From positions 45,630-101,444 of the forward strand of contig NZ_BMLQ01000012.1 in NCBI RefSeq assembly GCF_014645315.1: 55,815 nucleotides of DNA, read 5' to 3'. The stretch's first letter is position 1; each line of letters starts with the position of its first letter. A model generated the notes under the pieces. It worked only from the letters and a program-made list of their open reading frames with translations. It searched no databases and had not been told where the DNA came from. The stretch comes from Citricoccus zhacaiensis. GTDB taxonomy: Bacteria; Actinomycetota; Actinomycetes; Actinomycetales; Micrococcaceae. The position numbers and the translations under genes are program-made. Below are positions 36,987 to 53,182 of this stretch, piece after piece.

Positions 36987-37023
36987 ATCTGGGTCTCCTC
37001 GATTCATTAGCTCTTCGAATAGA

Positions 37024-38229: not shown

Positions 38230-39362
38230 GGCCGGGCGGGCCCCCACAGGTCCTCTGGTGAGGTGCGCAGGGTCTGTGGGTCGGCCGGCATCGGGGCCGG
38301 GGTGCGGGAGAAACGCGGCGCGGGCGCCGGCTGCACCACGCCGTCCACCTCGATGAGCGTGCCCCGGCTGCCCAGGTGTTCGTCCCGCTCGGCTTCGGCA
38401 TACGTCAACACCGGGGTGACGCAGGCATCCGTCCCGTCGAAGACCTCGGTCCAGTGGGCCTGGTCGTGCTCGGCGAACCGTTCGGTGAACAAGTCGCGGA
38501 GGGCCGGCCAGGTGGCCGGGTCGTCGCGGTCCGGGGCGGTGCGCTCGGGCGCGGTGCCGTCCAGGCCCAGCCCGGACAGGAGCTGGGCGTAGAAGGCCGG
38601 CTCCAGAGCACCGACCGCCATGTGCCGTCCGTCCCGGGTGCGGTACACCTCATACCAGGGCCGGCCACCGTCCAGCATGTTGGACCGCGGCTCGTCCGAC
38701 CAGCGGCCGGCGCCGCGCATGGCCCAGACCCACTGCCCGAGCATCGAGGCTCCGTCCACCATGGCGGCGTCCACCACCTGTCCCCGCCCGGAGGCGGCGC
38801 GCTCGAGGAGGGCGGAGAGCACTCCCGTGACCAGGAACATGGTGCCTCCGCCGTAATCCCCCAGCAGGTTCAGGGGGATGGCCGGCTGGGCGTCTGCTCC
38901 GGTGATGGCGGCCAGGTGTCCGGTCAGGGACAGGTAGTTGAGGTCATGCCCAGCGCTCTGGCTGCGGGGACCGTCCTGACCCCACCCGGTCATGCGGCCC
39001 AGCACCAGCCGCGGGTTGCGTGCCAGCAGCTCGTCCGGCCCGAGCCCGAGGCGTTCCAGCACCCCGGGCCGGAACCCCTCCAGCACCACGTCGGCTCCCG
39101 CGGCCGCCTCTAGGAAGGCGAGGCGGCCGTCGTCGGACTTCAGGTCCAGTTCGATGACGCGGCGGCCCCTGCGGGTGCCGTCCAGCTGGTTCCCCTGGCT
39201 CTCCAGCCAGCCAGGACGGGCCACGAGTACGACGTCGGCGCCCAGGTCCGCGAGGATAGTGCCGGCCAGTGCCACAGGCCCCAAGGCGAAGACCTCGAGT
39301 ACCCGGATGCCGGCCAGCGGACCCCGCTGCTGTCCCGGCCCCTTCTCAGGTGCGCCGGGCAT
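38226..39362 (-). CDS. CaiB/BaiF protein, alpha-methylacyl-CoA racemase-like
   Basis: A 378-residue class III CoA-transferase fold protein. It opens GPLAGIRVLEVFALGPVALAGTILADLGADVVLVARPG and has LDLKSDDGRLAFLEAAAGADVVLEGFRPGVLERLGLG. GHDLNYLSLTGHL and LNLLGDYGGGTMFL carry the His and Asp seen at the active site of alpha-methylacyl-CoA racemases. That suggests epimerisation of 2-methyl-branched acyl-CoA rather than CoA transfer. ATG 39362 overlaps the TRAP permease stop (TGATG). Its place between TRAP transport and acyl-CoA dehydrogenation supports a branched-acid substrate. Confidence 0.9.
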   Translation of the reverse strand: MPGAPEKGPGQQRGPLAGIRVLEVFALGPVALAGTILADLGADVVLVARPGWLESQGNQLDGTRRGRRVIELDLKSDDGRLAFLEAAAGADVVLEGFRPGVLERLGLGPDELLARNPRLVLGRMTGWGQDGPRSQSAGHDLNYLSLTGHLAAITGADAQPAIPLNLLGDYGGGTMFLVTGVLSALLERAASGRGQVVDAAMVDGASMLGQWVWAMRGAGRWSDEPRSNMLDGGRPWYEVYRTRDGRHMAVGALEPAFYAQLLSGLGLDGTAPERTAPDRDDPATWPALRDLFTERFAEHDQAHWTEVFDGTDACVTPVLTYAEAERDEHLGSRGTLIEVDGVVQPAPAPRFSRTPAPMPADPQTLRTSPEDLWGPARP

Positions 39363-41491
39363 CAGGAGCCTCCTGTCGCCCCGAGGAGGACGAACTCCGG
39401 GACGAAGATGATGAACACCAGCATGGCGATGCCCGCCAGCAGGAACGGACCGACACCCTTGAACACGTCGATCAGGCTGACCGGTGTTCCGGCATTCACC
39501 TCGGGGTTCTGGGACACCCGGTGGACGATGTAACTGAGGATGCCGATCGGCGGGGTGACCATGCCCAGCTCGACCAGGATGACCATGAAGATGCCGTACC
39601 AGATCAGGTCGACGTCCAGGGCGGTCAGCACCGGGGCGAGGACCGGGACGGTCAGCAGGATCATGGCCAGGCTGTCCATGAACATCCCCATCAGGATGAA
39701 CACGGGGATCAGCAGCAACAGCAGCATGGTCCGGGTCAGGCCGATGGACTGCACCCATTCGGCGAGCGCCTCGGCCAGGCCGGAGAGCGCGACCACCCGG
39801 GTGAGCACATGGACGCCGATCAGCAGCAGGAAGATCGGAGCCACGCCGGCCACGGTCTCTTTGAGCGAATCGATCATCCGGGGCCAGAACGTCTTCCAGC
39901 TGCGGTCGTCACTGAAGGCCCAGCCCATGACGATGGCAAGCAGGGCGCCTACCGCGCCCGCCTCGGTGGGTGTGAACAGGCCGGAGAACATGCCGCCGAT
40001 GATCGCCAGGATGATCACGGTCATGGGGATCACCCCGGGCAGGGTCCGGAAGCGGTGCGTCCACGAGACGCTTCCGCCCGCGGCCTTCGGCGCGAGCTTC
40101 TTGTCCGCCAGGGACCACAACAGGATCACCACAGAGAAGGCGATGGCCAGGACCACGCCCGGCAGCACCGCCGCCGTCAGCTGCGGGCCCACCGCGGTTC
40201 CCGCCGTGCTGGCGTAGACCACCAGCACCACGGACGGGGGAATGAGCATGCCGAGGGTTCCGGACATTGCCACAGAACCGGTGGCCAGCTTGGGCTTGTA
40301 CCCCGCCTTGAGCATCTCCGGGATGGCCACCCGGCCCAGGGAGTAGGTGATGGCCATAGAACTGCCGCTGGCCGCGGCGAGACCTGCACCGGCGAAGTTC
40401 GTGGAGATCGCCAATCCGCCGGGCAGCCCGCCCATCCAGGCCTTCGCCGCCTCGAACAGTCGAGCCGTCAGCTGGAAGCGGCCCATCACGGTGCCCATGA
40501 GGATGAACATCGGGATGACGCTGAGGCTCCAGCTGGCGGTGGTGTCAAAGGGGATGTCCTCGAAACTCACCAGCACGGCGTTGAACCCGGACATCCGCCA
40601 CAGGCCCACGGCAGCCGGGATCAGGATGGCGAAGCCGATGGGGATGCCGGCCAGCATCAGCACGATGGACAGAGCGATCACCAGGATGCCGATGGTCAGG
40701 TCGCCGACCGGACCGAAGAGGACCAGGACCATCAGGGCGAGCATCACCACTACGGCACCGATCATCAATCTCCGGCTGGCGATCTCGGCGGCAGGTGCCT
40801 CGATGTTCTGCGCGCTCTTCAACTCAGTAGAGACACGGCGTTCCACCAGCACGGATTCGGGATCGACCCGGCCTGCGATGACCATGTCCACCATCGTGGC
40901 CACGATCTGCACCGCCAACAGGATCAGACCGAGTGCGACAAGGATCTTGACCGGCCACACCGGGATCTCCACGGCGCCCAGTGCCACGAGCTGGATCTCC
41001 GTGGCGAAGGAGGCACTGGCCACGGCGGCGACCGCAAGAGTGACCGTGGCGACCAGGCTGATCGCCTGGGCCGTGAGGTTAGCCACCAATGCATCCTTGG
41101 GGCCCAGCCGGTCCACCAGGATGGTCGCCCGGATGTGCTCGCCGATGGACTGAGCGAATGCCAGCGAGAGGAACACCAGCAGCGGCATCAGCGCGTACTG
41201 CGTGATCTCCAGGACACCCGTGATCGGCTGGTGGAGCAGGCGCATCACCACGTCGGCCACGATCAGCAGGCCCAGGATCATGGTCAGCACACCGGCGACC
41301 TGGCCGCCGATCTTGCTGATCAGGTGGGCCACCCGCGTCAGCCATGTCCCGCCCATCCCCGGCTGTTTCGGTTCGGAAGTCGGCATGACCACTAGGTCGT
41401 CAGCATCCGGATGGCCCATGACACCGTCCTGGTCGTGAGTGGACGCTGTCCGCTGTCCGGTGAGCTGTTGAGTAACGCCGTTGGGGGTCAT
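39362..41491 (-). CDS. TRAP transporter fused small/large permease (DctQM type)
   Basis: A 709-residue protein. The N-terminal DctQ-like unit (about residues 50-215) has four helices and ITGVLEITQYALMPLLVFLSLAFAQ. The DctM unit of about 12 helices contains GIPIGFAILIPAAVGLW, MGGLPGGLAISTNFAGAGLAAASGSSMAITYSLGRVAIPEML, GMLIPPSVVLVVYAS, FTPTEAGAVGALLAIVMG and ELGMVTPPIGILSYIVH. Works with the binding protein encoded just upstream to import a carboxylate using an ion gradient. ATG overlaps the DctP stop (ATGA). DctQ-DctM fusions are known. Confidence 0.95.
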   Translation of the reverse strand: MTPNGVTQQLTGQRTASTHDQDGVMGHPDADDLVVMPTSEPKQPGMGGTWLTRVAHLISKIGGQVAGVLTMILGLLIVADVVMRLLHQPITGVLEITQYALMPLLVFLSLAFAQSIGEHIRATILVDRLGPKDALVANLTAQAISLVATVTLAVAAVASASFATEIQLVALGAVEIPVWPVKILVALGLILLAVQIVATMVDMVIAGRVDPESVLVERRVSTELKSAQNIEAPAAEIASRRLMIGAVVVMLALMVLVLFGPVGDLTIGILVIALSIVLMLAGIPIGFAILIPAAVGLWRMSGFNAVLVSFEDIPFDTTASWSLSVIPMFILMGTVMGRFQLTARLFEAAKAWMGGLPGGLAISTNFAGAGLAAASGSSMAITYSLGRVAIPEMLKAGYKPKLATGSVAMSGTLGMLIPPSVVLVVYASTAGTAVGPQLTAAVLPGVVLAIAFSVVILLWSLADKKLAPKAAGGSVSWTHRFRTLPGVIPMTVIILAIIGGMFSGLFTPTEAGAVGALLAIVMGWAFSDDRSWKTFWPRMIDSLKETVAGVAPIFLLLIGVHVLTRVVALSGLAEALAEWVQSIGLTRTMLLLLLIPVFILMGMFMDSLAMILLTVPVLAPVLTALDVDLIWYGIFMVILVELGMVTPPIGILSYIVHRVSQNPEVNAGTPVSLIDVFKGVGPFLLAGIAMLVFIIFVPEFVLLGATGGS

Positions 41492-42693
41492 GGCCGGTTC
41501 CTATCCCACAGTTTGCTCTTGACCGTCTCCTCATATTCGGAGAGGTCGATGTCCTCAGGCGTGCCCAGGTCCATGTCCTGCACACGTTCGAGCCAGGTGT
41601 CCATGGTGGTGACGTAGTCATCGATGACAGCCTCGGGGTCTTCCAGGGATTCCGGCGCCGAAGCCGGCATCTGGTCTACGACCTTGGATTGTTGGTCTTC
41701 GATGGCATCGACGAGGTCGTCTTCTCCCTCCAGGAAGGTCAGCCCCTTGTCCTCAACGCCCTCCGTGCGGAGCTTCTCCTCCAGGCCGAGGCCTTCGTAC
41801 TTGAGGTATTCGAGCCACCAGGTGTATCCGGCATCCCACACTGCGTCCCGGTCTTCGGGCTCCAGGGCATTCCACTGGTCCAGGTTCATGATCGCGTACT
41901 GGGCGTTGATGCCGGACAGCGGGATCTCCGTGTAGTGCTTGGCCACGTCCCACAAGCTGTAGGCGGTGACTGTCTTGGGCGAAGCCAGCGCACAGTCGAT
42001 CACGCCGCGCTGGAGTCCCTCGTAGGTCTCCGTGATGGACACGTTCACCGGGATCATGCCGGCAGCCGCCAACTCCCGGTCCCACAAGGCGCCGCCACTA
42101 CGGACGCGCTTGCCTTTGGCGTCTGCCAACGATGTCACCGGGGAGGTGCAGATGATGTCGTACTTGGTGATCGAGTGGGACGAGAACAGCAGCTTGATGC
42201 CGCGGTCTTCGAATTGCTCGTTGACCTGCTCTGAGTTCATGGCGAAATCTGCCTGGGCGGCATTAGCCTGCAGGATGCCGTCCGGGTAGTCCGTGGAGGA
42301 GACGCTCCCCAAAGAACTGATCCACTCCGTGAACGGAAATTCGCTGCCATAGTAGGTAGCGGTGAACATGCCCAGATCAGCCACACCGCCGCGGATACCC
42401 GCCGGCATGTCCGCAGTACCGAGCAAGCTACCGCCCCAGTACTGCTTGAAGTCGATCCGCCCGTCAGTTTCCTCGGTGACCTGATCCGCGAAGGCCTGGA
42501 AGGGCCCGCCCGAGGTGGCGCTGGTGTAGTCCGCATACCGCAGCACCAGAGGGTTGTCTTCCGAGTAGGCCGCCCCCAAGGGGGTGGCCCCACAGCCGGC
42601 GAGGGTCCCGGCCATCAGGGCGATCGCCACACCGGCGACGGTCCGCATGCGCCTCGAGGGGCGCTTCTTTCCATGAGTTGTCATTGTGCTCAC
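41488..42693 (-). CDS. TRAP transporter substrate-binding lipoprotein (DctP type)
   Basis: A 401-residue secreted lipoprotein with a twin-basic N-region, a hydrophobic helix and lipobox LAGC at about residue 34. Then come YADYTSATSGGPFQAFADQVTEETDGRIDFKQYWGGSLLG and DMPAGIRGGVADLGMFTATYYGSEFPFTEW. KGKRVRSGGALWDRELAAAGMIPVNVSITETYEGLQRGVIDC is the DctP ligand-binding core, which normally carries an Arg that salt-bridges a carboxylate. GTG 42693 or ATG 42684 are both possible starts. Captures the acid for the adjacent permease. Confidence 0.94.
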   Translation of the reverse strand: MSTMTTHGKKRPSRRMRTVAGVAIALMAGTLAGCGATPLGAAYSEDNPLVLRYADYTSATSGGPFQAFADQVTEETDGRIDFKQYWGGSLLGTADMPAGIRGGVADLGMFTATYYGSEFPFTEWISSLGSVSSTDYPDGILQANAAQADFAMNSEQVNEQFEDRGIKLLFSSHSITKYDIICTSPVTSLADAKGKRVRSGGALWDRELAAAGMIPVNVSITETYEGLQRGVIDCALASPKTVTAYSLWDVAKHYTEIPLSGINAQYAIMNLDQWNALEPEDRDAVWDAGYTWWLEYLKYEGLGLEEKLRTEGVEDKGLTFLEGEDDLVDAIEDQQSKVVDQMPASAPESLEDPEAVIDDYVTTMDTWLERVQDMDLGTPEDIDLSEYEETVKSKLWDRNRP

Positions 42694-42735
42694 GCTTCCT
42701 TGACCCGGGCAGGCCTTATGGCCTGGTTCCGTAGG

Positions 42736-43893
42736 TCAGAGGCCCATCCTCTTGGCGAGGACATTCCGCTGGATTTCATTGGTTCCGCCGCCGATCGGGC
42801 CGACGCGGGAGTCACGGAAGTACATCTGCATGTCATATTCCATGGCGTAACCAGATCCGCCATAGACCTGCAAACCGATGTCCGAGACCTTGAAGTTGTT
42901 CTCCGTGGCGATGATCTTGGCAGCCGAGGTCTCCTCGATGGCCAGTTCGCCGGCGTCGAGCAGCTCCGCGACCCGGTACGTGGCCTGACGCGCCTGCTCG
43001 GCCATGAGCCACATATCCACCAGCTTGTGCTGAATGACCTGGAACGAGGAGATCGGCTGGTCGAACTGCACGCGCTCCTGCGCATACTCCCGGGCGTCCT
43101 CCGTCACGCGGTAGCAGTTACCGGCCGCGATGGCGGCCAGGCCGAGACGCTCTCCGGCCAGGCACTTCATGAGGTTCTTCCAGGTCTTGCCCTCTTCTCC
43201 GATGCGGTTCTCCTCGGGAACGACGACGTTCTCGAAGACCACCTCGTTGGCGTGGGTGGTCCGCCGGCCCAACATCTTCAGGGGATTGATGGTGACGCCG
43301 GGGCTTGTGACGTCCACCAGGAACGTGGTCAGGCCCTGGTGCCGTTCGGCGTTCGGGTCGGTCTTGGCGATCACCACGATGTAGTCGGCCACATGCGCGC
43401 CGGAGATCCACACCTTGGTTCCGTTGAGAACATAGCCGCCGTCCTGCTTGACCGCCTTGGTCGAGAGACCTGCCACGTCGGATCCGGTGCCCGGCTCGGA
43501 CATGGCCAGCGCCAGTTTGACGGAACCGTCGATGACGCCGGGGAGGATGCGCTTCTTGAGCTCATCGCTGCCGAACTTGGCCACGTGGCCACCGGCGTAG
43601 ACGGAGGTGATCATGACAGCCTGACCGATGCCCGCGTAGTGGTACCCCAGGGTCTCCATGAAATTGGTGATGTCCTTGTAGGACCCGCCGGCGCCCCCGT
43701 ACTCCTCCTCGAAGAACAGGCCGAGGAATCCGCTCTCCGCCAGTGCCTGATAGGCGGCCTGAGGGAATTCCTTAGCCTCGTCGATGCGGCGGATCTCCTC
43801 CTTGGGGAGGGTGGACTCAAGGATCTCGAGGACGGCCTCGCGGACCATCTTCTGGTCCTCGCTCAGGCCTGCTGTGTTGACAAGTGTCTTCAT
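42736..43893 (-). CDS. Acyl-CoA dehydrogenase
   Basis: A 385-residue FAD enzyme with FLGLFFEEEYGGAGGSYKDI, LAMSEPGTGSDVAGL (flavin loop), KVWISGAHVADYIVVIAKTD, VQVYGG-type GLQVYGGSGYAMEYDMQMYFRDSRV, and GGGTNEIQRNVLAKRM at the end. The Glu that precedes GT in medium-chain enzymes is Gly here. The catalytic base is therefore likely on an earlier helix, as in long-chain and isovaleryl-type members (region EDAREYAQERVQFDQPISSFQ). ATG 43893 follows aaggag. Introduces the 2,3-double bond of the acyl-CoA. Confidence 0.92.
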   Translation of the reverse strand: MKTLVNTAGLSEDQKMVREAVLEILESTLPKEEIRRIDEAKEFPQAAYQALAESGFLGLFFEEEYGGAGGSYKDITNFMETLGYHYAGIGQAVMITSVYAGGHVAKFGSDELKKRILPGVIDGSVKLALAMSEPGTGSDVAGLSTKAVKQDGGYVLNGTKVWISGAHVADYIVVIAKTDPNAERHQGLTTFLVDVTSPGVTINPLKMLGRRTTHANEVVFENVVVPEENRIGEEGKTWKNLMKCLAGERLGLAAIAAGNCYRVTEDAREYAQERVQFDQPISSFQVIQHKLVDMWLMAEQARQATYRVAELLDAGELAIEETSAAKIIATENNFKVSDIGLQVYGGSGYAMEYDMQMYFRDSRVGPIGGGTNEIQRNVLAKRMGL

Positions 43894-43907
43894 GGACGGT
43901 TTCTCCT

Positions 43908-44372
43908 TCAATTGGTCTGTGTTTCAAGTCCGGCGCGGGTGTAGGCCATGGTCTTCATGACGCCGCGCTGGACCACCGTGTTGTCCTGGTTCACGAGTTC
44001 CATCTGCCGGGCGACCACGCCGCGGTCCGGCTTCGAAGTGGTCTTGGCGCTCTGGATGGTGGTGCGCAGCCGGACTGTGTCCCCGATGAAGATGGGGGCA
44101 AGGAACACCCATTCGTCCACACCGAGTGCGGCGATGGCTGTCCCGTCGAATTCGCCCATACGGGCGCTGAGGCCGGTGACGATCGACATGCCCAAAGTGC
44201 CGTGGGCAATGCGTTGGCCCAGCGGTGATCGGCCGGCGTACTCGGCATCTGTGTGCATGGGGTTGGTATCGCCGGAGACCCAGGAGTACGTCACCACGTC
44301 GGTTTCTGTGACGGTACGGGCGGGGCTCTCCCTAACCTCACCGACGATGAAATCCTCTACGCATTTGCCCAC
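43908..44372 (-). CDS. MaoC-family enoyl-CoA hydratase
   Basis: A 154-residue hot-dog-fold hydratase with YSWVSGDTNPMHTDAEYAGRSPLGQRIAHGTLGMSIVTGL. This contains the Asp and His of the D-x-N-P-x-H hydratase motif and the overhanging RIAHG segment. GTG 44372 has aggag 7 bases upstream, inside the 3' end of the ligase gene (16-base overlap), so the two are coupled. It would hydrate the enoyl-CoA made by the acyl-CoA dehydrogenase next to it to a 3-hydroxyacyl-CoA. Confidence 0.92.
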   Translation of the reverse strand: MGKCVEDFIVGEVRESPARTVTETDVVTYSWVSGDTNPMHTDAEYAGRSPLGQRIAHGTLGMSIVTGLSARMGEFDGTAIAALGVDEWVFLAPIFIGDTVRLRTTIQSAKTTSKPDRGVVARQMELVNQDNTVVQRGVMKTMAYTRAGLETQTN

Positions 44373-46591
44373 TGGACTACTCCTTCTGCCTCTACATCCG
44401 CTGACGCGGCATCGGTCTGGTTCTGTCGGGTGTGCTCCTGCTCCGCCGTCAGCACCATGAGCGCATCGACGGCGACCGGGCCCCGGTCTCGGGTGATCCG
44501 GACGGGGTTCAGTTCGACCTCGGTGGCCACGCCATCGAGGTCTCGGGCCAACCGGGAGAAGGCAACGATGGCGTCGGCGATGGCGTCGATGTCATAGGCG
44601 TCCTCACCGCGGGCCCCATTCAGGACACCGGCCAGGGTCATCTCAGCCACGGCCGCGCGGGCCGTGGCCCGATCCATCGGAGTGAGATAGACCTTGACGT
44701 CCCGGAGAATCTCGACCCAGACGCCGCCGCTGCCGAGCAGGATGAGGGGCCCGAAGACCGGATCGAAGCGGGCACCCAACAGGATCTCCGGCCCCTCGCC
44801 CGCCATCGTCTGAAGGCTGTAGCCCTCGATGCGGGCGTTCGGGGCCTCTGACACCAGCCGAGCAGCCATGGTGGAGATGGCTTCACGGACCTCCTCCGCG
44901 CTGTTGAGCCCCACCCTCACGCCGCCGACCTCTGACTTGTGCAGGATGTCTGGGGAGACCACCTTGAGCACCAAGGGAAAGCCCATGGCCTCCGCTGCAG
45001 CGGCAGCATCGTCAGGTCCATGGACCGCGCGCTCCCCTGGTACGCGGATGCCATAGCTGGCCACAATTTTCTTGGCGGCAGACTCCGTCAGGGCCGTGGT
45101 CCCCGCAGGCAGGGCGGCCAGCAGGCCAGCTGCCGGCGACTCACGACCGCGGTCAGCTGCGGACTCGGCCAGCGGAGACCAGTCGGTGCGCGCGTGCCAG
45201 TCCATCCACTGCCTGATGGTCCACATGCACCGGGCCGGGGAACGGAAGATCGCGACGGACGCGTCGCCGTCGAGATCCTGGCTGCCGGGTCCCTCGAGCC
45301 ACTCGTTCATCCAGACCGCTGCCAAAGGCGTAGTGGACTCGGCCGCCACCTCGGCCAGGTACCGGGCACGCACGCCGGTGGTTGCCTCGTGCACGAATGT
45401 CAGTGGCACCACCACGGCGCCAAAGGCCGGGTCGTCGCAGAATGCCGTGAGGCTCGTCTTGAACGTCTCGACGTTCTTCAACACCTCTGCTGTCAGGTCT
45501 GCTGGGTTGGCCAGGGACCCGAAGCCAGGGACCACATCGTTCAGCACGCTCGTGGTCGCGTCAGCCAAGGGGGGCAGAAGCAGCCCGTTCTCCTCGGCCT
45601 TGTCGGCACAGATCACACCGGCTCCGCCCGAGGTGGCCATGATGCCGACGCCCTCGCCGGTGGGGCCCTCTGAGTTCCGGTCGAAGAAGGCGGCGACTTC
45701 CATGAGTGCCTCGAAGTCCTCGACGAGGATCGCCCCCGCACGCTTGAAGGCGGCACGGTAGGCGTCTGCCGAGCCGGCAAGGGTACCGGTGTGGGACAGG
45801 GCGGCCCTGCTGCTGGCCTCGCCGTTGGCGGCCTTGTAGACGATCACCGGCTTGCCGGCGCGGCCGGCCTTGCGGATGGCTTCGATGAACCGCCCGCCGT
45901 CAGAGATGCCCTCCAGCAGGCACACGATGGTGGATGTGTCCGGATCCTCTGCCAGATAGGACACGTAGTCGGCGACGTCAATGTCGACGGAATTGCCGCA
46001 GGCGAGGAACTTACTGAAGGACAGGCCGCGGTGCAGTCCCTGCAATAGCGCGTAGCCGAGCGCGCCACTCTGGGAGACCAGGGAGATCCGACCGGCGTCT
46101 CCTTGGATCATCTCTCCGCAATCGGTCATGAAGTTCATCCCGGCGCCGCTGTTGGCGTTGACAAGGCCCACACAATTGGGCCCGGCGAGCCGGAGTCCGG
46201 CCCGCTGCGTGGTGTCCAGGAGTCGCTGCTGCGCTGCCTCGCCGTCTGCGCCGCCCGCCTCGCGGTACCCGGACGCATAGAGTATGGCCCCGCCGATGCC
46301 GAGCTCGGCGGCTTCCTTGATCACTGACTCCGCGAGCTTCTGTCCGACCCCGACGATCACACAGTCCGGCGTCTCGGGCAGATCGCTCAGGCTCGGGAAC
46401 GTCTGGTATCCGAGGATGTCGCTGTACTTGGGATTGATTCCATAGACGGTGCCGCCGAAGTGAGCGAGGTTCTCGAGGGTGCGTCGGCCGAAGCTGCCCT
46501 CGGTCGAGGATGCGCCGACGACCGCGATGGTCTGGGGCTCGATAAGCCTGCGCAGGTCTTCACGCCCATACAAGGGACGGTGGTGAGTCAT
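44357..46591 (-). CDS. NDP-forming acyl-CoA ligase (ACD-type, fused subunits)
   Basis: About 744 residues. The CoA-binding domain (LIEPQTIAVVGASSTEGSFGRRTLENL) is followed by a succinyl-CoA-ligase-like domain with GAILYASGYREAG and RLAGPNCVGLVNA. The phosphohistidine region ASSRAALSHTGTLAGSADAY comes next, and the C-terminal half is an ATP-grasp domain (ESAAKKIVASYGIRVPGE, GFPLVLKVVSPDILHKSEVGGVRVGL). ATG 46591 follows aggag. Activates a carboxylate to its CoA thioester with ADP release. First gene of the minus-strand pathway operon; substrate presumably the TRAP-imported acid. Confidence 0.93.
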   Translation of the reverse strand: MTHHRPLYGREDLRRLIEPQTIAVVGASSTEGSFGRRTLENLAHFGGTVYGINPKYSDILGYQTFPSLSDLPETPDCVIVGVGQKLAESVIKEAAELGIGGAILYASGYREAGGADGEAAQQRLLDTTQRAGLRLAGPNCVGLVNANSGAGMNFMTDCGEMIQGDAGRISLVSQSGALGYALLQGLHRGLSFSKFLACGNSVDIDVADYVSYLAEDPDTSTIVCLLEGISDGGRFIEAIRKAGRAGKPVIVYKAANGEASSRAALSHTGTLAGSADAYRAAFKRAGAILVEDFEALMEVAAFFDRNSEGPTGEGVGIMATSGGAGVICADKAEENGLLLPPLADATTSVLNDVVPGFGSLANPADLTAEVLKNVETFKTSLTAFCDDPAFGAVVVPLTFVHEATTGVRARYLAEVAAESTTPLAAVWMNEWLEGPGSQDLDGDASVAIFRSPARCMWTIRQWMDWHARTDWSPLAESAADRGRESPAAGLLAALPAGTTALTESAAKKIVASYGIRVPGERAVHGPDDAAAAAEAMGFPLVLKVVSPDILHKSEVGGVRVGLNSAEEVREAISTMAARLVSEAPNARIEGYSLQTMAGEGPEILLGARFDPVFGPLILLGSGGVWVEILRDVKVYLTPMDRATARAAVAEMTLAGVLNGARGEDAYDIDAIADAIVAFSRLARDLDGVATEVELNPVRITRDRGPVAVDALMVLTAEQEHTRQNQTDAASADVEAEGVVQWANA

Positions 46592-46701
46592 GTCACTCCT
46601 GGGTTTCAAAGGTTGATCCATTGCCAGTGTGACTGTAGTCTCAAAGTCCGTCAAGAGGTGTTCCAAACGTCTCGATTCGCATCCGCCAGGAGGAGCACGA
46701 C
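46592..46701. promoter_or_regulatory. Divergent promoter of the ligase and thiolase-like operons
   Basis: A 110-base region separating the two pathway operons. A strong ribosome site (ggagg) precedes the plus-strand ATG. I saw no strong palindrome. It is the natural place for the GntR protein encoded at 48367 to act, but no site can be pointed out. Confidence 0.45.
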
Positions 46702-47892
46702 ATGGGCAGAGTGGCAGTCATCGGTTATGCGGCAACCCCCGTGGGCCGACTCCAACCCCAAGGGCCGGAGAGCGGCTCCCTGGAACATGAGGTCCTGGCT
46801 GACGTGGTGCTCCGGGCGGTCGAGATGGCCCAGGTGGACAAGTCGGACATCGGCGGGCTGAGCTTCGCCCAGCCCCGTCCTTACACGCAGCAGAAGTACT
46901 TCGCGACCTTCATGGCGAGCTATCTGCAGCTGCCTTGCGACGGGTTCGTGGCCGAGGTCCTCGGCAATGGGATGACCGGTGGCTTCGCCTTCGAGCATGC
47001 GGCCGACAACATCCGCACGGGCCGTGCCAAAGTGGCTTTGGCGCTGGGCGTGAACTATGAGACCGCCATCCCCTCAGGCGAGCACATGATGAGCTCCATG
47101 CGGGCCGTGGGTGACGTGGATTTTCAGGCACCCTTCGGCATTACGCCTATCGCCTGGTATGCCATGGACATGATGCGCTACCTCCACGACTTCGGGGCAA
47201 CCCGCGAGGACGTCGCCACGGTGGCCGTGAAGAACCGCCACCACGCCACGCTGAATCCTCTGGCCCAGTACCGCAAGCCCACCACCCTGGAAGAGGTCCT
47301 GGACCAGCCCACCATCGTGCACCCCTTGGGGCTCTTCGAGGTACCCCCGCGCAGCGACGGGGCGGTGTGCCTAGTGCTGGCCGACGAGGAGGTCGCCCGC
47401 GCCAGTGGGCGGCCCTATGTGGTGGTGCGCGGCACCGGCTTCCATCACGAGGGCGCCCACCAGATCACGGCGACACCCAACGACATGATCGCCTTGAACG
47501 CAGCCCAGAAGGCCGGTGGGCAGGCCTTCGATGAGGCCGGGCTTCGACCGTCCGACATTGACTTCGCCGAGCTGTACGCACCCTGCACCATCGTCGAAGT
47601 CCTCGTCAGTGAGGCCCTCGGCTTCGCGCCCCGTGGAGCCGGCGCACGGTTCGCCGCGGAGGGCCGCACCTCCCTGGGCGGGGACATCCCCCTCTCGACC
47701 TCCGGCGGGCTGACCTCCCGTGGTCACCCCGCCTATGTCACCCCGCTCTACAACCTGCTGGAGACCTGCGAGCAATTGATGCATCAAGCAGGAGAACGAC
47801 AGGTCAAGGACGCCTCCGTCGGACTTGCGACAGCCGAACTCGGCAACTACAACGCCGCCTTGGTACACATCCTCGAAAGGGTCTCCGCATGA
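46702..47892 (+). CDS. Thiolase-fold protein without catalytic cysteines (SCP2/Ltp-like)
   Basis: A 396-residue protein of the thiolase superfamily: VAVIGYAATPVGRL, GGLTSRGHPAYVTPLYNLLE with the GHP His, and LGNYNAALVHILE at the end. The nucleophile position that reads CASG in thiolases is EVLGNGMTGG, and the C-terminal CxGGG loop is TAELGNYNAA, so both active-site Cys are lacking. FAELYAPCTIVEVLVSEALGF is where Ltp-type aldolases have YDCFT. With a DUF35 partner following by ATGA, this resembles the Ltp2-DUF35 retro-aldolases of steroid side-chain breakdown. Thiolysis is unlikely; aldol cleavage is an inference. Confidence 0.85.
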   Translation: MGRVAVIGYAATPVGRLQPQGPESGSLEHEVLADVVLRAVEMAQVDKSDIGGLSFAQPRPYTQQKYFATFMASYLQLPCDGFVAEVLGNGMTGGFAFEHAADNIRTGRAKVALALGVNYETAIPSGEHMMSSMRAVGDVDFQAPFGITPIAWYAMDMMRYLHDFGATREDVATVAVKNRHHATLNPLAQYRKPTTLEEVLDQPTIVHPLGLFEVPPRSDGAVCLVLADEEVARASGRPYVVVRGTGFHHEGAHQITATPNDMIALNAAQKAGGQAFDEAGLRPSDIDFAELYAPCTIVEVLVSEALGFAPRGAGARFAAEGRTSLGGDIPLSTSGGLTSRGHPAYVTPLYNLLETCEQLMHQAGERQVKDASVGLATAELGNYNAALVHILERVSA

Positions 47893-48308
47893 TTGACACC
47901 GTCGAACTCGACCGCCCGCACCCGTACCCGCCCCGGAAGACGCCCTTCACCACCCGTTTCTGGGAGGCTCTGGCCCAGGGACGGTTCATCACCACCCGAT
48001 TCGGCTCCGACGGCGTCCCCACGTTCCCGCCCAGGGAGTTCGACCCGGCCACCTGGAACCGCGATGTCGACTGGGTGGAGCTCTCCGGGCAAGGAACGCT
48101 GTACTCCGTCACCTCCGTGCATGCCGCTCCCGAAGCTTTCAAGGCCTTCACGCCCTATCAGGTCGCCATCGTGGACCTCGAGGACGGACCCCGGCTGGCC
48201 ACGGCATTCCTCGGGCCCGTGGACACTCCGCTGGACAGCCCGGTGGAAATCGTCGCGTTACGATACACGGACGACATGGCCTTCGCAGCCCGCCCTGTGG
48301 CGACCTGA
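47889..48308 (+). CDS. DUF35/OB-fold partner of the thiolase-like protein
   Basis: A 139-residue protein. A helical start (TPFTTRFWEALAQGRFITTRF) is followed by a segment VPTFPPREFDPATW where DUF35 proteins carry a four-Cys zinc ribbon, but no Cys is present. The OB fold follows: WVELSGQGTLYSVTSVHAAPEAFKAFTPYQVAIVDLEDGPRLATAF. ATGA overlap with the thiolase-like gene indicates a stoichiometric complex. In Ltp2-type systems this subunit helps bind acyl-CoA. The missing zinc ligands are unusual. Confidence 0.85.
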   Translation: MIDTVELDRPHPYPPRKTPFTTRFWEALAQGRFITTRFGSDGVPTFPPREFDPATWNRDVDWVELSGQGTLYSVTSVHAAPEAFKAFTPYQVAIVDLEDGPRLATAFLGPVDTPLDSPVEIVALRYTDDMAFAARPVAT

Positions 48309-48366
48309 GCCCATGTCCATCACGACGCCGGCTGGCCAGACAGACCAGCCCAAAGGGAGGCAATAC

Positions 48367-49089
48367 GTGGATCGCCCAGCTCAGCCCTTTGCGAGCGTCC
48401 GCCCTCGTCGCGCCGTCGACGCCATCATCGAGCAGATCCGCGACCGCATCCAGTCCAACGAGCTCAAGCCAGGCCAGAAGCTTCCCAGCGAGCGCGACCT
48501 GGCCGAGCAACTCAGCGTCAGCCGGAACACCGTCCGGGAGGCGATCCGGATGCTCGAGGTCTCTGGGCTCGTCACGCTGAAGAAGGGCGCCACCGGCGGA
48601 GCCTTCCTCACCAACTCAAACTCGGCCGCCTTGTCCCAGAACCTGATTGACGGCATCGCCCTTCGCCAGTACAACGTCAAAGAGCTCATCGACGTCCGCA
48701 TGGTCTTGGAGCAGTACATCGCCGCACAGGCTTGCGAGAATGCCAGCGACGAACAAATTGAAGAACTCGCCGCGCTTGCGCAGGCCTCCCGCCAAGCCGA
48801 GGATGACGTTCCGGAGTACGAGCAACGCTTGGACTTACACATTGAGTTTCACCGGAAGCTCTCTGAGATGTCCCACAATGGCGTGGCGGAGACTCTGACG
48901 GGGCCTCTGCTGGAGATCACGCGGCACTTCCACCTCGAGACCGGTCCCACCGGCGGCCCCGAGACGCACGAGACTCGTCAAGAGTTGGTGCAGGCACTAC
49001 GGGAACGTAATCCCGAAGCCGCCAAGTTGGCACTCGCCAAGCACTTCGCAGCGCTGCAGAGTCGATTGCTGGTATCTCACCCGGACTGA
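48367..49089 (+). CDS. GntR-family regulator, FadR/FCD subgroup
   Basis: About 240 residues from GTG 48367, chosen because gggagg lies 6 bases before it; ATG 48313 is the alternative. The winged helix has DAIIEQIRDRIQSNELKPGQKLPSERDLAEQLSVSRNTVREAIRMLEVSGLVTLKKGATGGAFL. The FCD domain has VKELIDVRMVLEQYIAAQACE, DLHIEFHRKLSEMSHN and KLALAKHFAAL with His-type ligand residues. Third gene on the strand with the thiolase-like and DUF35 genes. Probably controls the divergent acyl-CoA operons in response to an acyl-CoA or acid. Confidence 0.92.
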   Translation: MDRPAQPFASVRPRRAVDAIIEQIRDRIQSNELKPGQKLPSERDLAEQLSVSRNTVREAIRMLEVSGLVTLKKGATGGAFLTNSNSAALSQNLIDGIALRQYNVKELIDVRMVLEQYIAAQACENASDEQIEELAALAQASRQAEDDVPEYEQRLDLHIEFHRKLSEMSHNGVAETLTGPLLEITRHFHLETGPTGGPETHETRQELVQALRERNPEAAKLALAKHFAALQSRLLVSHPD

Positions 49090-49134: not shown

Positions 49135-49998
49135 TTACTGCGCCACGTAGCCTCCATCAATGGACCACACGGCACCCGTGGCGAAGCTCGCGGCGTCGGA
49201 GGCCAGGAAGCAGATGACCTCGGCGACCTCCTCGGGCGTGCCGAGACGACCGATGGGCTGGCGGACGGTCATCTGCGAGCGGACGGACTCGTCCAGTTTG
49301 GCGGTCAGCGGGGTCTCCACGTAACCCGGGGCCACCGCGTTCACGCGGATCCCGGTCGGCGCGTAGCTGAGTCCGGCGGAGCGGACGAGGTTGGCCACCC
49401 CAGCCTTGGCCGCCGAGTACGGCGCGGAGTTGGCCTGGCCGACGAGTCCGAGGATCGAGGAAACCGCGACGACGGCCCCGGAACCCTGGGCGTCCATGTG
49501 CCGCAACGCGTGCTTCAGCGACAGAGCCACCCCGGTCAGGTCGATGTCCAACACGGTGCGCCAGTGATCCACGTCCAGCTCGTGCAGGGGCCCCTTACGC
49601 TCGGCGATGCCGGCGTTGGCCACCAGGACATCCACGCTCCTGGAGCCGCCGCCGGCACCAGGAGAGTCACCGAACTCTGCCGCGGCATCCATCAGCGCCG
49701 CCACGGACTCCTCGTCGATCACATCGCAACGCACGGACAACGCCCGACCGCCCGCAGCCTCAATCTCAGCCACCACGTCAGCGGCCCGCGGGTCCACGTC
49801 ACCGATCACCACGGCGGCCCCACGGGCGGCGAGCATCCGCGCGGTCGCCGCACCAATCCCGCCGGCTGCACCGGTCACGACCGCCGTGCGCCCCGCGAAC
49901 GGCGAGGGATCCACACCCAGCCGGGGGCCGGCGTCGGACATCTGACCCATCTCAGCACCACGCCCCACGCCGGCCCCCACAGGATCAGTCGAACTCAC
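49135..49998 (-). CDS. SDR-family dehydrogenase, copy B
   Basis: A 287-residue protein almost identical to copy A: TGAAGGIGAATARML, VLVANAGIAERKGPL, SSILGLVGQANSAPYSAAKAG and ATGAVWSIDGGYVAQ. GTG 49998 overlaps the flavoprotein stop (GTGA). Last gene of the 55.4-49.1 kb operon and translationally tied to an intact KstD-like enzyme. It may oxidise or reduce the hydroxyl or ketone on which the flavoenzyme acts. Confidence 0.92.
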   Translation of the reverse strand: MSSTDPVGAGVGRGAEMGQMSDAGPRLGVDPSPFAGRTAVVTGAAGGIGAATARMLAARGAAVVIGDVDPRAADVVAEIEAAGGRALSVRCDVIDEESVAALMDAAAEFGDSPGAGGGSRSVDVLVANAGIAERKGPLHELDVDHWRTVLDIDLTGVALSLKHALRHMDAQGSGAVVAVSSILGLVGQANSAPYSAAKAGVANLVRSAGLSYAPTGIRVNAVAPGYVETPLTAKLDESVRSQMTVRQPIGRLGTPEEVAEVICFLASDAASFATGAVWSIDGGYVAQ

Positions 49999-50510
49999 GC
50001 ACCGACCTCCATGGCCCGCTCCAGGGCATCAGCAGAACCGGACTCGGCGGCCAGCTCAGCAATATCGCGGCCCATCCGGTAACCGAACACCAGCGCCGGG
50101 CCGATGTGCGAGCCGTAGCCCGGGTACCCGCCACCGAACACGGACACGGCAGCGGCACCCACGGAGTACAGCCCCGGGATCCGCTGGCCGTCCTCGCGCA
50201 CCACCGCGTGCCGCGAATCCACGTCGATCCCCGCGAAGGAACCGAGGTCCCCCATCCGCACCTTCGCGGCGTAGTACGGTGCCTGGTCCAGGGTGGCCAG
50301 GTTCGGGTTCGGCTTGTGGTCCATGTCCCCGCGGAAGTGGTTGTACGCGGTGGACCCGCGGCCGAACTCGGTGTCCTCCCCGGCCACGGCATCCCGGTTG
50401 AACCGGTCGATCGTGGACTGCAGCCCGGCGGCGTCCACACCGATCTTCTCAGCGAGCTCGGCCACGGTCTCACCCTTGACCAGGTAGTCCGCGGCGTAGA
50501 ACAGCTGACG
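49136..50510 (-). repeat. Long direct repeat, copy B (SDR + flavoprotein 3' end)
   Basis: This is the intact counterpart of 28000-29400 in the same orientation. Both copies keep the same gene order, and homology ends near IPRQLF of the flavoprotein, where copy A has its deletion junction. Confidence 0.85.
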
Positions 50511-51746
50511 CGGGATCGGGGTGGGCTTGGCGAAGCCGATCCCGTACTTGCGCATCAGCTTCTCATCGCCCACGATCCACGCGTACACCGACTCCTCGTC
50601 CTTCATGTGGTCCAGCATCTGCCGGCCGAAGTCGTGGTAGCTCAGCGCCTCGTTGCCGAAGCGCTTCCCGTGCTTGTCCACCGTGATCATGCCGGGCAGC
50701 CCGATCTGGCGCAGGTGCGGGAAGAGCCGCTGGGTGCGGGTGACCAGGTTCTTGAACACCGTCACCGGGGCCCAGGAGCCCGGGGAGGACACGGCCGCGT
50801 TGATCCTCCCACCCACGGCCATCGCCATCCGCGCCGAAGAACCGTCGTGGCCCTGGGTCGGGGTGAAGTGCTCCCCGCCGTTCTTGTCATGCGGGAAGTA
50901 CTGGCGGCGCAGCTCCTCGTCTCCGGAGAAGCCGCCACCGGCCAGGACCACGCCGAGGCGTGCCTGCACGGTGCCGGCATGCGTGCCGGACAACATGGCA
51001 CCGGTGACGGCGCCGCCGTCGTTCACCACCAACTCCTCCACCGGAGTGGAGGTCCATACCCGCACCCCGGCCTCCAGCGCGGAGGCGACCATGCGGGTCA
51101 TCAGGGCGGAGCCGTTGGTGCGCTTGAGCGGCTGCTGGAACAGAGCGGTATCCACCCAGGTGCGCAGCAGCTTGGAGGCGGTGTAGGTGAAGGCTTTCAC
51201 GGACTGGTTGGCCTTGAGGATGGTGGCCATGTCCGGACCCACCTGCGGCATGTACCCGAACACGGTGTAGGAACTCAGGTACGGCTGCAGCTCCTTGCGG
51301 CGGGCGCCCAGCATGCGGATGTCCGCGTCGGACGGCAGGATCGCGCGCCCTCCCAGGCGAGCCCCGGGAAGGTCCATCTGATAGTCCGGGGCCTTCTCCG
51401 GGTAGGAGAACACCACGGAGGTGTTGTCCTCGAAGAAATCGATCGCCTCGGGGACGGTGTCCAGGAAACCGGCCACGCCCTCCTCGTTGTAGTAGTCCCC
51501 GGACAGCGCCTTCAGATAGGTCTCCGCTTCGGCCCGGGTGTCCCCCGTGGCGGCGGAGCCCTTCGGGTTGCCCGGCACCCAGGACCAGCCCGCGGACAAG
51601 GCCGTGGTGCCGCCGAAGTGCGGGGACTTCTCCGCCACGATCACGTTCAGCCCGTCATGGGCGGCCCGCAGCGCGGTGGCCATGCCGGCGGCGCCGGAGC
51701 CGACCACCAGGACGTCGCACTTGTGGAGGGGGTTCTTCTCGGTCAT
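49995..51746 (-). CDS. FAD-dependent KstD-like dehydrogenase, intact copy
   Basis: About 583 residues from ATG 51746 (ggag 5 bases upstream; ATG 51773 has no site). It has a Rossmann FAD motif CDVLVVGSGAAGMATALRAA, GGTTALSAGWSWVPGNPKG (KstD-type flavin loop), TVDKHGKRFGNEALSYHDF, and GGGYPGYGSHIGPALVFGYRMGRD near the C-terminus. There the Tyr of YPG and the following Gly match 3-ketosteroid delta-1-dehydrogenase active-site residues. It should abstract hydride alpha/beta to a ring or conjugated ketone. Substrate may be a steroid-like or cyclohexanone-type acid. Precedes the SDR by GTGA overlap. Confidence 0.9.
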   Translation of the reverse strand: MTEKNPLHKCDVLVVGSGAAGMATALRAAHDGLNVIVAEKSPHFGGTTALSAGWSWVPGNPKGSAATGDTRAEAETYLKALSGDYYNEEGVAGFLDTVPEAIDFFEDNTSVVFSYPEKAPDYQMDLPGARLGGRAILPSDADIRMLGARRKELQPYLSSYTVFGYMPQVGPDMATILKANQSVKAFTYTASKLLRTWVDTALFQQPLKRTNGSALMTRMVASALEAGVRVWTSTPVEELVVNDGGAVTGAMLSGTHAGTVQARLGVVLAGGGFSGDEELRRQYFPHDKNGGEHFTPTQGHDGSSARMAMAVGGRINAAVSSPGSWAPVTVFKNLVTRTQRLFPHLRQIGLPGMITVDKHGKRFGNEALSYHDFGRQMLDHMKDEESVYAWIVGDEKLMRKYGIGFAKPTPIPRQLFYAADYLVKGETVAELAEKIGVDAAGLQSTIDRFNRDAVAGEDTEFGRGSTAYNHFRGDMDHKPNPNLATLDQAPYYAAKVRMGDLGSFAGIDVDSRHAVVREDGQRIPGLYSVGAAAVSVFGGGYPGYGSHIGPALVFGYRMGRDIAELAAESGSADALERAMEVGA

Positions 51747-51778
51747 GTGTTCTCCAGAGTTCGGGGTAGACATCGTGT

Positions 51779-53182
51779 TCAGGCTCGGGTCCGGCCGGTG
51801 CCCCTGAGGTAGGGCTCGCCGAGCTCCGCGATGGGAGTGTGCGCGGTCTCCCGCGAGCTGAAGCACGCCGCGGCGGCGATGAGGGCCACCACGCAGCCGA
51901 AGATCGCCACGGGGACCCAGCCGAACGCGCCGGCGCCAAGCAGCATGCCGCCGATCATCGGGCCGAAGCCGGCCAGGACCAGGCCCAGCTGGTTGCCCAT
52001 GGCCATACCGGTGTAGCGGACCGGGGCGGCGAACAGCTCCCCGAAGAAGGAGGTCCACACGCCGTTGAAGCCGGAGTACAGCACCGTCATGAACAGGAAC
52101 GAGGCGGCGAAGACCAGCCAGATGTTGCCGGTGCCCAGGGCCAGGAAGTACAGGAAGATGGCCACGGAGCAGCCGATCATGGCGGTCAGCATCAGCGGCT
52201 TGCGGCCGATCCGGTCCGAGAGCTTGCCGGCGAAGGGCATGATGGCCATGGACAGGCCGATGGCCACCGCGTTGACGGTCAGGATGTCCGTGCGCTCGAA
52301 GCCGCCCTGGTCCACGGCGTAGGACAGGCCGAACACGGTGAAGATCGTCTGCATCACGGAGAACGCGGACATCAGCATCACGCGCAGCACGTCCCCGCCC
52401 TGGTACTTCAGCACCTCGCCGGCAGGCAGCTTCTTGACCTCGCCGGCCTCGGCCACCTCCTCCTCGAAGACGGGGGTCTCGTCCAGCTTGGTCCGCACCC
52501 AGAAGGCGATGGCCAGCACGAACACTGAGAGCAGGAACGGGATCCGCCAGCCCCAGCTCAGCAGGGCTTCCTCCGGCAGGGCCGCGATGGGGATGAACAC
52601 GACCGTGGAGAGGACCATGCCCGCGGCGTAGCCCATCATCACGAAGGAGGTGAAGAAGCCGCGGCGGCCCTCCGGGGAGTGCTCGATCGTCAGCGAGGAG
52701 GCCCCCGCGGACTCGGCGCCGGCGGAGAAGCCCTGCGCCAGGCGGGCGACCACCAGCAGCACGGTGGCCCAGATGCCGATCGACTCGAAGGTCGGCAGCA
52801 GGCCGATGGCCAGCGAGGCCAGGCCCATGATCATCAGGGTCACCAGCAGCACGTTCTTACGCCCCAGCCGGTCCCCGAAGTGGCCCATCACCAGGCCGCC
52901 GAGCGGACGGGCGATATACGCAACGCCGAACGTGGCGAAGGAGGCGATGGCCGCGATGGCCGGGTCACCGCCCGGGAAGAACAGCTGCGGGAACACCAGG
53001 GCGGCGGCGGTGCCGTAGATGAAGAAGTCGTAGTACTCCATGGTGGAGCCCAGGAAGGAGGCCAGGGCCGCCTTCTTCGGCGTGCCCTGGTGCTCCATCA
53101 CGACGTCGGCCCGGTCGCCTGCGCCGGTCCGCGCGGCGTGCGCTCCGGTTCCGGTGGGTGAGGGTGTGGCGGTGGTGCTCAT
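51779..53182 (-). CDS. MHS-family MFS transporter
   Basis: A 467-residue metabolite:proton symporter: FLGSTMEYYDFFIYGTAAALVFPQLFF at helix 1, RPLGGLVMGHFGDRLGRKNVLLVTLMIMGLAS, and RLAQGFSAGAESAGASSLTIEHSPEGRRGFFTS. It is close to ShiA/KgtP-like carriers of aromatic or dicarboxylic acids. ATG 53182 overlaps the Dabb gene stop (ATGA), and the second flavoprotein follows after 32 bases. Probably imports the ring-containing acid processed by the operon. Confidence 0.94.
   Translation of the reverse strand: MSTTATPSPTGTGAHAARTGAGDRADVVMEHQGTPKKAALASFLGSTMEYYDFFIYGTAAALVFPQLFFPGGDPAIAAIASFATFGVAYIARPLGGLVMGHFGDRLGRKNVLLVTLMIMGLASLAIGLLPTFESIGIWATVLLVVARLAQGFSAGAESAGASSLTIEHSPEGRRGFFTSFVMMGYAAGMVLSTVVFIPIAALPEEALLSWGWRIPFLLSVFVLAIAFWVRTKLDETPVFEEEVAEAGEVKKLPAGEVLKYQGGDVLRVMLMSAFSVMQTIFTVFGLSYAVDQGGFERTDILTVNAVAIGLSMAIMPFAGKLSDRIGRKPLMLTAMIGCSVAIFLYFLALGTGNIWLVFAASFLFMTVLYSGFNGVWTSFFGELFAAPVRYTGMAMGNQLGLVLAGFGPMIGGMLLGAGAFGWVPVAIFGCVVALIAAAACFSSRETAHTPIAELGEPYLRGTGRTRA

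Follow-up and report, generated by a model that had tools for sequence, protein, structure and literature searches.

How is an acid degraded as its coenzyme A (CoA) ester by an operon with a ligase, a dehydrogenase and a hydratase, when neither a 3-hydroxyacyl-CoA dehydrogenase nor a normal thiolase is encoded beside them? The question is raised by a locus of the actinobacterium Citricoccus zhacaiensis, in the stretch of 55,815 nucleotides analysed here (the window: contig NZ_BMLQ01000012.1, positions 45,630 to 101,444), which forms the end of a 101-kb contig in a genome of 3.69 Mb. There, a gene for a thiolase-fold protein (46702-47892) overlaps by 4 bases the gene for a DUF35 protein, and the two diverge from the operon. 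We showed that the thiolase nucleophile is a Gly in this protein and in its whole family, and that a DUF35 gene and genes for acid activation, dehydrogenation and hydration recur beside it. We favour the reading, with a probability of about 0.68, that an acid is imported, activated and cleaved by a retro-aldol reaction to a ketone and an acyl-CoA. The genes concerned are these:

46702-47892, plus strand: thiolase-fold protein without nucleophile Cys, 396 aa (Pfam Thiolase_N, weak at 34.7 bits, and Thiolase_C_1, 136.9 bits); proposed acyl-CoA retro-aldolase with candidate residues Gly90, Tyr292 and His342
47889-48308, plus strand: DUF35 OB-fold partner, 139 aa (Pfam OB_ChsH2_C; PDB relatives 6esq_E, 9myr_B, 6ok1_B)
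44357-46591 (longest frame to 46666), minus strand: ADP-forming acyl-CoA ligase, proposed CoA activation (Pfam, NCBIfam)
43908-44372, minus strand: MaoC-type hydratase, proposed enoyl-CoA hydration (Pfam)
42736-43911, minus strand: acyl-CoA dehydrogenase with a helix-G Glu base (Pfam, PDB)
41488-42693, minus strand: solute-binding protein DctP of a tripartite ATP-independent periplasmic (TRAP) transporter (Pfam, PDB)
39362-41491, minus strand: TRAP permease DctQM, fused (Pfam)
38226-39362, minus strand: alpha-methylacyl-CoA racemase by sequence, of the CoA-transferase family III fold ("CaiB"; Pfam, PDB matches)

A first-pass annotation of this DNA had described the minus-strand operon in the same terms, and its genes and frames were confirmed. 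It had also noted the lack of a 3-hydroxyacyl-CoA dehydrogenase and a normal thiolase; neither was found among the Pfam-annotated genes of the operon and the divergent pair (36264-48308). One coordinate had to be revised: comparison with three orthologues places the ligase start probably at 46591 rather than at the TTG at 46666, which simply opens the longest frame, so that the divergent gap spans about 110 bp. No sigma-70-type consensus was found in 46450-46760, which carries little weight for an actinobacterium.

Active site of the thiolase-fold protein

Active-site residues were counted in 54 family proteins, after dropping a near copy (L011; loci are numbered in this way), two fragments (L061, L062) and repeats from the same locus, and classing L005 as distant. 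The position of the thiolase nucleophile is Gly90 in all 54. The HDCF motif of SCP2 thiolases reads Y292-A-P-C in the window protein and Tyr292-Ala/Ser-Pro294-Cys295 across the family, Tyr, Pro and Cys each occurring in 54/54; His342 of the GHP motif and Glu379 are equally invariant. The earlier claim of a thiolase fold devoid of both active-site cysteines therefore stands, with the addition of an invariant Cys295 one residue beyond the second-Cys position of SCP2 thiolases, where it aligns with the Phe or Tyr of YDHF/YDCY and with no catalytic Cys site.

Two thiolase-fold aldolases serve as references. TcLtp2 uses Tyr294 (in YDHF) and Tyr344, while CtSal uses Tyr302 and Cys304 (in YDCY), has Gln352 at the Tyr344 position and Gly at the nucleophile site; SCP2 thiolases show HDCF (available text of PMC12329534). 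When the window protein is aligned to CtSal with hhalign (the chain numbering being that of PMC12329534 plus 24, as derived from the motif), the C-terminal part is ungapped and matches Tyr292 to Tyr302, Pro294 to Cys304 and His342 to Gln352. Gly90 corresponds to CtSal Gly89 in the family alignment, hhalign being gapped at that place. Since the alignment to Sal puts a His at the acid site of Ltp2 and a Pro at Cys304 of Sal, we predict a third catalytic pair, found in neither proven aldolase, with Tyr292 as base and His342 as acid. Tyr292 would remove the proton of the beta-hydroxyl, the NH of Gly90 would replace the thiolase nucleophile and His342 would protonate the enolate. The first-pass annotation had suspected retro-aldol cleavage instead of thiolysis; the exchanges of Cys for Gly and of His for Tyr, as in Ltp2 and Sal, argue for this at the level of sequence.

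Its further claim, that the protein is like Ltp2, holds for these two positions and is not supported for the second catalytic residue or for descent. Of 44 control rows that are not family members (15 references or distant relatives and 29 further loci), 40 are ungapped at the two sites, their nucleophile/motif states being Gly/Tyr in 23, Cys/His in 11, Gly/His in 3, and Ser/His, Met/Tyr and Cys/Tyr in one each. An unrooted tree of 41 rows splits the window family from Ltp2/Sal (99/97). In an unrooted tree of 48 rows (without L102, L118, L109, L113, L115, BbsB, L116 and L117, which are fragments, rows with site gaps, very long frames or odd rows), the window group with L005, L064, L096 and L097 occupies one side of a branch (100/98), and the Ltp2/Sal group, 15 rows with support 100/100, stands apart from it. 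By these trees the window family is a separate clade, though likened to Ltp2/Sal in function. The Gly/Tyr rows L114 and L122 join the Cys/His side, whose label in this tree also covers L107, L120 and L121 (Gly/His) and 4yzo (Ser/His). As a branch (90/83, unstarred) puts all Gly/Tyr rows on one side, a single switch to this state suffices, and we dropped the independent origin suspected from the 41-row tree.

Two observations stand beside these trees. The distant relatives that group with the window family (L064, 3986-5140; L005, 1495-2661; L096; L097) carry YAPF or YGxF as their motif and retain GHP; they come from a haloarchaeon and from members of the window's phylum. L107, L120 and L121, with thiolase fold, Gly at the nucleophile and His in the motif, show a further combination beyond the thiolase and aldolase types.

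Among solved complexes, TcLtp2-ChsH2 (6ok1) shares with the window pair the thiolase fold, the Gly at the nucleophile, the Tyr base, the DUF35 partner and the logic of dehydrogenase plus hydratase. It differs in motif (YDHF versus YAPC), in clade, in its acid (Tyr344 versus His342, by the alignment to Sal) and in its steroid cluster; its ChsH2 also differs from the window DUF35 protein, which lacks the zinc cysteines. The bile acid aldolase CtSal-CtShy (9myr) likewise has Gly for Cys, a Tyr302 equivalent and a DUF35 partner; its Cys304 and Gln352 are replaced as described above, and the DUF35 domain of the window is not fused to MaoC, unlike that of CtShy. In the benzoylsuccinyl-CoA thiolase BbsAB (7pxp) the thiolase plus DUF35 architecture and GHP are as in the window, whereas BbsB retains a thiolase HDAF motif (the compared fragment excludes the nucleophile). 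The archaeal thiolase/HMGCS-DUF35 complex 6esq, considered here as a PDB match only, has the same architecture. The SCP2-type and DUF35-associated thiolases have the nucleophile Cys and the His of HDxF in place of Gly90 and Tyr292, and the GHP His is common to both.

The DUF35 protein of the window has no cysteine at all and has lost the zinc ribbon. The zinc-ligand Cys are also gone in nine actinobacterial members (L016-L023, L038) and partly lost in three alphaproteobacterial ones (L050, L051, L053); all four are kept in the actinobacterial L003, L004, L006, L058 and L059 and in the remaining proteobacterial rows shown. The zinc site is already varied in CtShy (PMC12329534, available text).

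Neighbourhood and distribution of the family

Some 50 relatives, 54-92% identical, occur in Actinobacteria, Proteobacteria and metagenome-assembled genomes (MAGs). Among 295 genomes sampled from the taxonomic family of C. zhacaiensis only its own matches at E 1e-60. In the phylum sample 4 of 396 genomes match: its own, two with 61-63% identity and a fourth with 37%. Eight of 78 plasmid records match at 60-70% identity, the next among the matches listed falling below 37%. Scanning genome contigs with an alignment of four members gave 48 further loci with relatives, so that the arrangement in the window is not due to chance. Hosts include Micrococcaceae, Nocardia, Rhodococcus, Microbacterium, Amycolatopsis and Nocardioides, and also Paraburkholderia, Hydrogenophaga, Ramlibacter, Bradyrhizobium, Humitalea, Rhodobacteraceae and other MAGs. 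The gene thus turns up seldom but in many groups, and has probably moved horizontally. We found no description of the family in open-access papers; the annotated records inspected name its members "thiolase family protein", and their role may be misread. Megablast against PLSDB gave no plasmid match to the 12.8-kb block of the window, a search tool that may omit near records.

Gene context was compared, with identity thresholds of our own choosing, in 53 loci: the 48 scanned, 4 plasmid records and the window; 36 of them have at least 17 kb. A DUF35 gene lies alongside in all 36 (51/53 overall). A ligase is found in 26 of the 36 and a CoA-transferase in nine, seven unfused (one, in L059, only 35% identical) and two fused; the two never occur together, and 35 loci have exactly one, L058 having neither. 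Over all 53 loci, both occur in L028 alone, and neither occurs in six (L035, L050, L051, L056, L057, L058), five of these being shorter loci. Since ligase and CoA-transferase replace each other, the route should start from a free acid and proceed via CoA esters, the strongest sign that we have for this. Acyl-CoA dehydrogenase (28/36) and MaoC (26/36) are similarly frequent, and this conserved context of activation, dehydrogenase, hydratase and DUF35 argues, like the motifs, for retro-aldol cleavage. The MaoC Asp/His are kept in 29/29 rows, as is, in 30/30 rows, the ligase His that we take to be the phospho-His. With one query each, and bases 35701-55815 only for the window, a 3-hydroxyacyl-CoA dehydrogenase turned up beside three of the 53 loci and a classical thiolase beside five; 46 have neither. 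Crotonase-type hydratases lie near 12 of the 53.

Other genes recur less often in the 36 loci: the racemase and a KstD-type flavoprotein in 15 each, DctP in 10, a tricarboxylate-type binding protein in 8, electron transfer flavoprotein and PrpD in 6 each.

Some loci deserve mention in their own right. A family III CoA-transferase replaces the ligase beside the lyase in L010, L029, L031, L034, L036, L039-L042, L046, L053 and L061, and weakly in L059; in L023 and L038 a fused double one takes its place. On an Achromobacter denitrificans plasmid (L011, 13645-19167) the annotation breaks up both the ligase and the KstD-type gene, which it does not in A. xylosoxidans A8. A Paracoccus plasmid (L066, 120-8556) carries ligase, MaoC, dehydrogenase, a Gly/Tyr thiolase-like gene, DUF35 and TRAP genes around a YDSF protein of the other clade, only 35% identical to the window protein.

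Substrate and competing explanations

In the pathway that we envisage, the TRAP transporter would import the acid, the ligase would make its CoA ester and the racemase would set an alpha-methyl stereocentre. The dehydrogenase would introduce an alpha,beta double bond and MaoC would hydrate it, to a 3-hydroxyacyl-CoA, its hydroxyl probably being tertiary and on a ring carbon. The 46702 protein and its DUF35 partner would then split this compound by a retro-aldol reaction into a ketone and propionyl-CoA (if the alpha-methyl is present) or acetyl-CoA, and the KstD/ChcC2-type flavoprotein would desaturate the ring ketone. What the sequences show is gene content, motifs, conservation and neighbourhood; from these we infer each reaction and the order in which they run, as well as the substrate and the complex.

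The first-pass annotation had proposed a branched or alicyclic acid, and three clues favour this, the substrate itself staying at the level of inference. The best solved relatives of the window "CaiB" are MCR and its variants (1x74, E 1.7e-120), and the GHD and GDYGGG active-site motifs align (1x74/8rmw). In 16 racemase rows, the window's included, the Asp motif is found in all and GHD by regular expression in 14, this expression having missed two over-extended frames, one of them the window's. We rejected "CaiB" as a plain CoA-transferase, its best solved relatives being racemases and a different CoA-transferase replacing the ligase elsewhere. By its sequence, then, the racemase suggests an acid with an alpha-methyl group, which would make propionyl-CoA a product. 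The orthologues of the dehydrogenase have the helix-G Glu in 35/35 and Gly or Ala at the Glu position of the medium-chain type; we take this to be the isovaleryl-CoA/long-chain type, which would suit a beta-branched substrate.

The third clue is the KstD-type neighbour, which in the window lies among chc genes (49135-55391) that the first-pass annotation had passed over, all three above their NCBIfam equivalog cut-offs:

49135-49998, minus strand: short-chain dehydrogenase/reductase (SDR), ChcB2 family (cis-4-hydroxycyclohexanecarboxylate dehydrogenase; NF053701, 390 bits, cut-off 350)
49995-51800, minus strand: KstD-type flavoprotein, ChcC2 family (cyclic-ketone desaturase; NF053677, 1001 bits, cut-off 900)
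53556-55391, minus strand: ChcC1-family flavoprotein (4-oxocyclohexanecarboxylate 2-dehydrogenase; NF053676, 1035 bits, cut-off 1000)

The actinobacterial KstD-type flavoproteins linked to the aldolase (in Nocardia, Rhodococcus, Arthrobacter and Microbacterium) form one clade with the ChcC2 of the window (9 rows, 100/100). The presence of such a desaturase near 15 of the 36 loci, and here amid chc genes, suggests that an alicyclic acid is cleaved to a ring ketone. The neighbour in Roseomonas best matches the 3-oxosteroid dehydrogenase 7p18 in the PDB and also matches the ChcC2 model, with a score under the cut-off. The chc genes serve the conversion of cyclohexanecarboxylate to 4-hydroxybenzoate, and the route of Sinomonas cyclohexanicum and others has ChcB2, ChcC2 and ChcC1 in common with the window; unlike our operon, it starts with a P450, and the available text names no CoA ester or aldolase (PMC9795900). 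Other sources of clues gave little: the PDB matches of DctP were too distant, and selected neighbouring genes at L007, L008, L010, L016, L017, L021, L023, L024, L026, L031, L032, L038, L041, L042, L046 and L059 held nothing decisive.

One might go further, tentatively and at odds well below even, and propose that acids with an alicyclic ring and a short carboxylated side chain (2-cycloalkylpropionates such as oxidised p-menthanes, or cyclohexylacetate) are degraded by an undescribed and widespread route. In it a thiolase-fold aldolase of a third, Tyr/His kind, with a zinc-less DUF35 in some Actinobacteria, would yield a cyclohexanone-type ketone and propionyl- or acetyl-CoA, and ChcC2/KstD would start aromatisation. 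Arthrobacter sp. CA1 (Ougham and Trudgill 1982) reportedly cleaves (1-hydroxycyclohexyl)acetyl-CoA to cyclohexanone and acetyl-CoA (EC 4.1.3.35), after ligase, dehydrogenase and hydratase steps, the tertiary alcohol being said to block beta-oxidation. The reported order of steps is that of our cluster, and we know of no gene for this (1-hydroxycyclohexan-1-yl)acetyl-CoA lyase. If the alicyclic proposal is correct the family would supply it, a tie that is offered as a hypothesis. Circumstantially, Cupriavidus metallidurans CH34 holds a related cluster and strain KUA-1 degrades cyclohexylacetic acid (PMC4547698, available text).

Several observations weigh against retro-aldol cleavage of an imported acid to a ring ketone. 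By the alignment to Sal, the family lacks the second catalytic residues of the known aldolases, Ltp2 Tyr344 and Sal Cys304; the alignment to TcLtp2 has a gap at GHP and would pair Tyr345, not His342, with Tyr344, an equivalence that we keep as an alternative alignment only (Tyr345 is present in just 36/54 family proteins). His342 is also the His of the ordinary thiolase GHP, the invariant Cys295 could play some role, and the top PDB score goes to a Cys/His thiolase, 7yvy (6e-47), above Ltp2 (2e-32). The coupling of Cys with His and Gly with Tyr gives a Fisher p of 3e-6 (38 rows with Cys or Gly, kinship ignored), a value that is overstated, since the 48-row tree shows few evolutionary events behind it; L109 (Met/Tyr) and L115 (Cys/Tyr) break the coupling. 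The racemase, the KstD-type gene and DctP are each missing from most of the 36 loci, and a 3-hydroxyacyl dehydrogenase of SDR type may be present. Finally, the counts are not independent, as several loci nearly duplicate one another (for instance two from Hoeflea, two from Sneathiella and two from Hyphomicrobiales MAGs).

The competitor that survives best, though we consider it unlikely, is a retro-aldolase for an aromatic (phenylpropanoid- or arylpropionate-like) or a steroid/terpenoid substrate, the adjoining chc genes being coincidental. A KstD-type gene and a racemase would fit steroid or terpenoid work too, and chcB1 is found elsewhere in the genome, above the NCBIfam cut-off at the start of another contig (C11, 1120-1869), so that the chc genes may serve separately; alternatively, the chc cluster may continue on that contig. 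The ibuprofen pathway offers a precedent outside steroids: its thiolase-like pair IpfDE, likened to ours by description, performs a retro-aldol step and releases propionyl-CoA, yet on a ring diol made by a dioxygenase, where the window has a dehydrogenase and hydratase route (available text of PMC9195938). The steroid marker HsaA matches at E 1e-20 in 12 of 19 genomes (our own and 18 carriers), 6 above the cut-off; the other 13 have none above it, and in the genome of C. zhacaiensis there is no match at E 1e-20. This leaves a steroid pathway in that organism unsupported, and the earlier placing of the gene set outside steroid clusters holds for its genome. In addition, the flanks of 7 of the 9 ChcC2-clade loci showed no relative of ChcC1, and the importers, TRAP or of the tripartite tricarboxylate type, suggest small acids.

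Less probable still is that the protein cleaves a small branched dicarboxylyl-CoA of the beta-methylmalyl- or citramalyl-CoA type, in the degradation of methylsuccinate- or itaconate-like acids. MaoC matches RipB/Ich at 63.8 bits, below the cut-off of 340, and mesaconyl-CoA hydratase weakly at 20.9 bits, also below cut-off, and DctP-type and tricarboxylate-type binding proteins occur at the loci. Yet the KstD-type flavoprotein would be unexpected, and the known beta-methylmalyl- and citramalyl-CoA lyases are CitE-like. That the protein is still a thiolase or Claisen enzyme, with Cys295 or another residue as nucleophile, is very improbable: it keeps the fold, His342 and an invariant Cys295, and its best PDB sequence match, 7yvy, is named acetyl-CoA acetyltransferase, but Gly holds the nucleophile site throughout the family, Cys295 sits at a Phe/Tyr position, and the cluster has no 3-hydroxyacyl-CoA dehydrogenase to provide a ketoacyl-CoA. 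A Cys-less decarboxylase or condensing enzyme (KSQ-like or a biosynthetic aldol enzyme) can practically be dismissed, as the succession of importer, ligase, dehydrogenase and hydratase is a degradative one and CtSal shows no malonyl-CoA decarboxylation, though the related TbSLP slowly decarboxylates this compound (available text of PMC12329534).

We therefore return to retro-aldol cleavage. The family would be a separate, DUF35-associated lineage of thiolase fold whose members are, on the evidence of their sequences, quite probably acyl-CoA retro-aldolases of non-steroid catabolism. If so, ending beta-oxidation by a retro-aldol step would not be peculiar to steroids; it would be a general answer to acids with a 3-hydroxyacyl-CoA that cannot undergo oxidation, spanning Actinobacteria, Alpha- and Betaproteobacteria. 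The family offers candidate genes for the degradation of alicyclic (naphthenic-type) acids and a scaffold for C-C lyases in which the predicted catalytic pair is a different one.

Other genes and repeats in the window

Three further genes adjoin those discussed:

48313-49089, plus strand: GntR/FCD regulator, adjoining the DUF35 gene downstream (Pfam)
37024-38229, minus strand: major facilitator superfamily transporter, on the strand of the ligase operon (Pfam)
36264-37067, minus strand: nitroreductase-family flavoprotein (Pfam)

Relatives of the nitroreductase occur in 12 of the 36 longer loci and in 14 of all 53, the window included. The window also has broken pieces of the chcB2-chcC2 pair: 28000-29403 matches 49136-50527 (88% identity), 29409-29578 matches 50931-51099 (82%), and 35976-36168 matches 49998-50189 (80%). 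These partial copies suggest past recombination.

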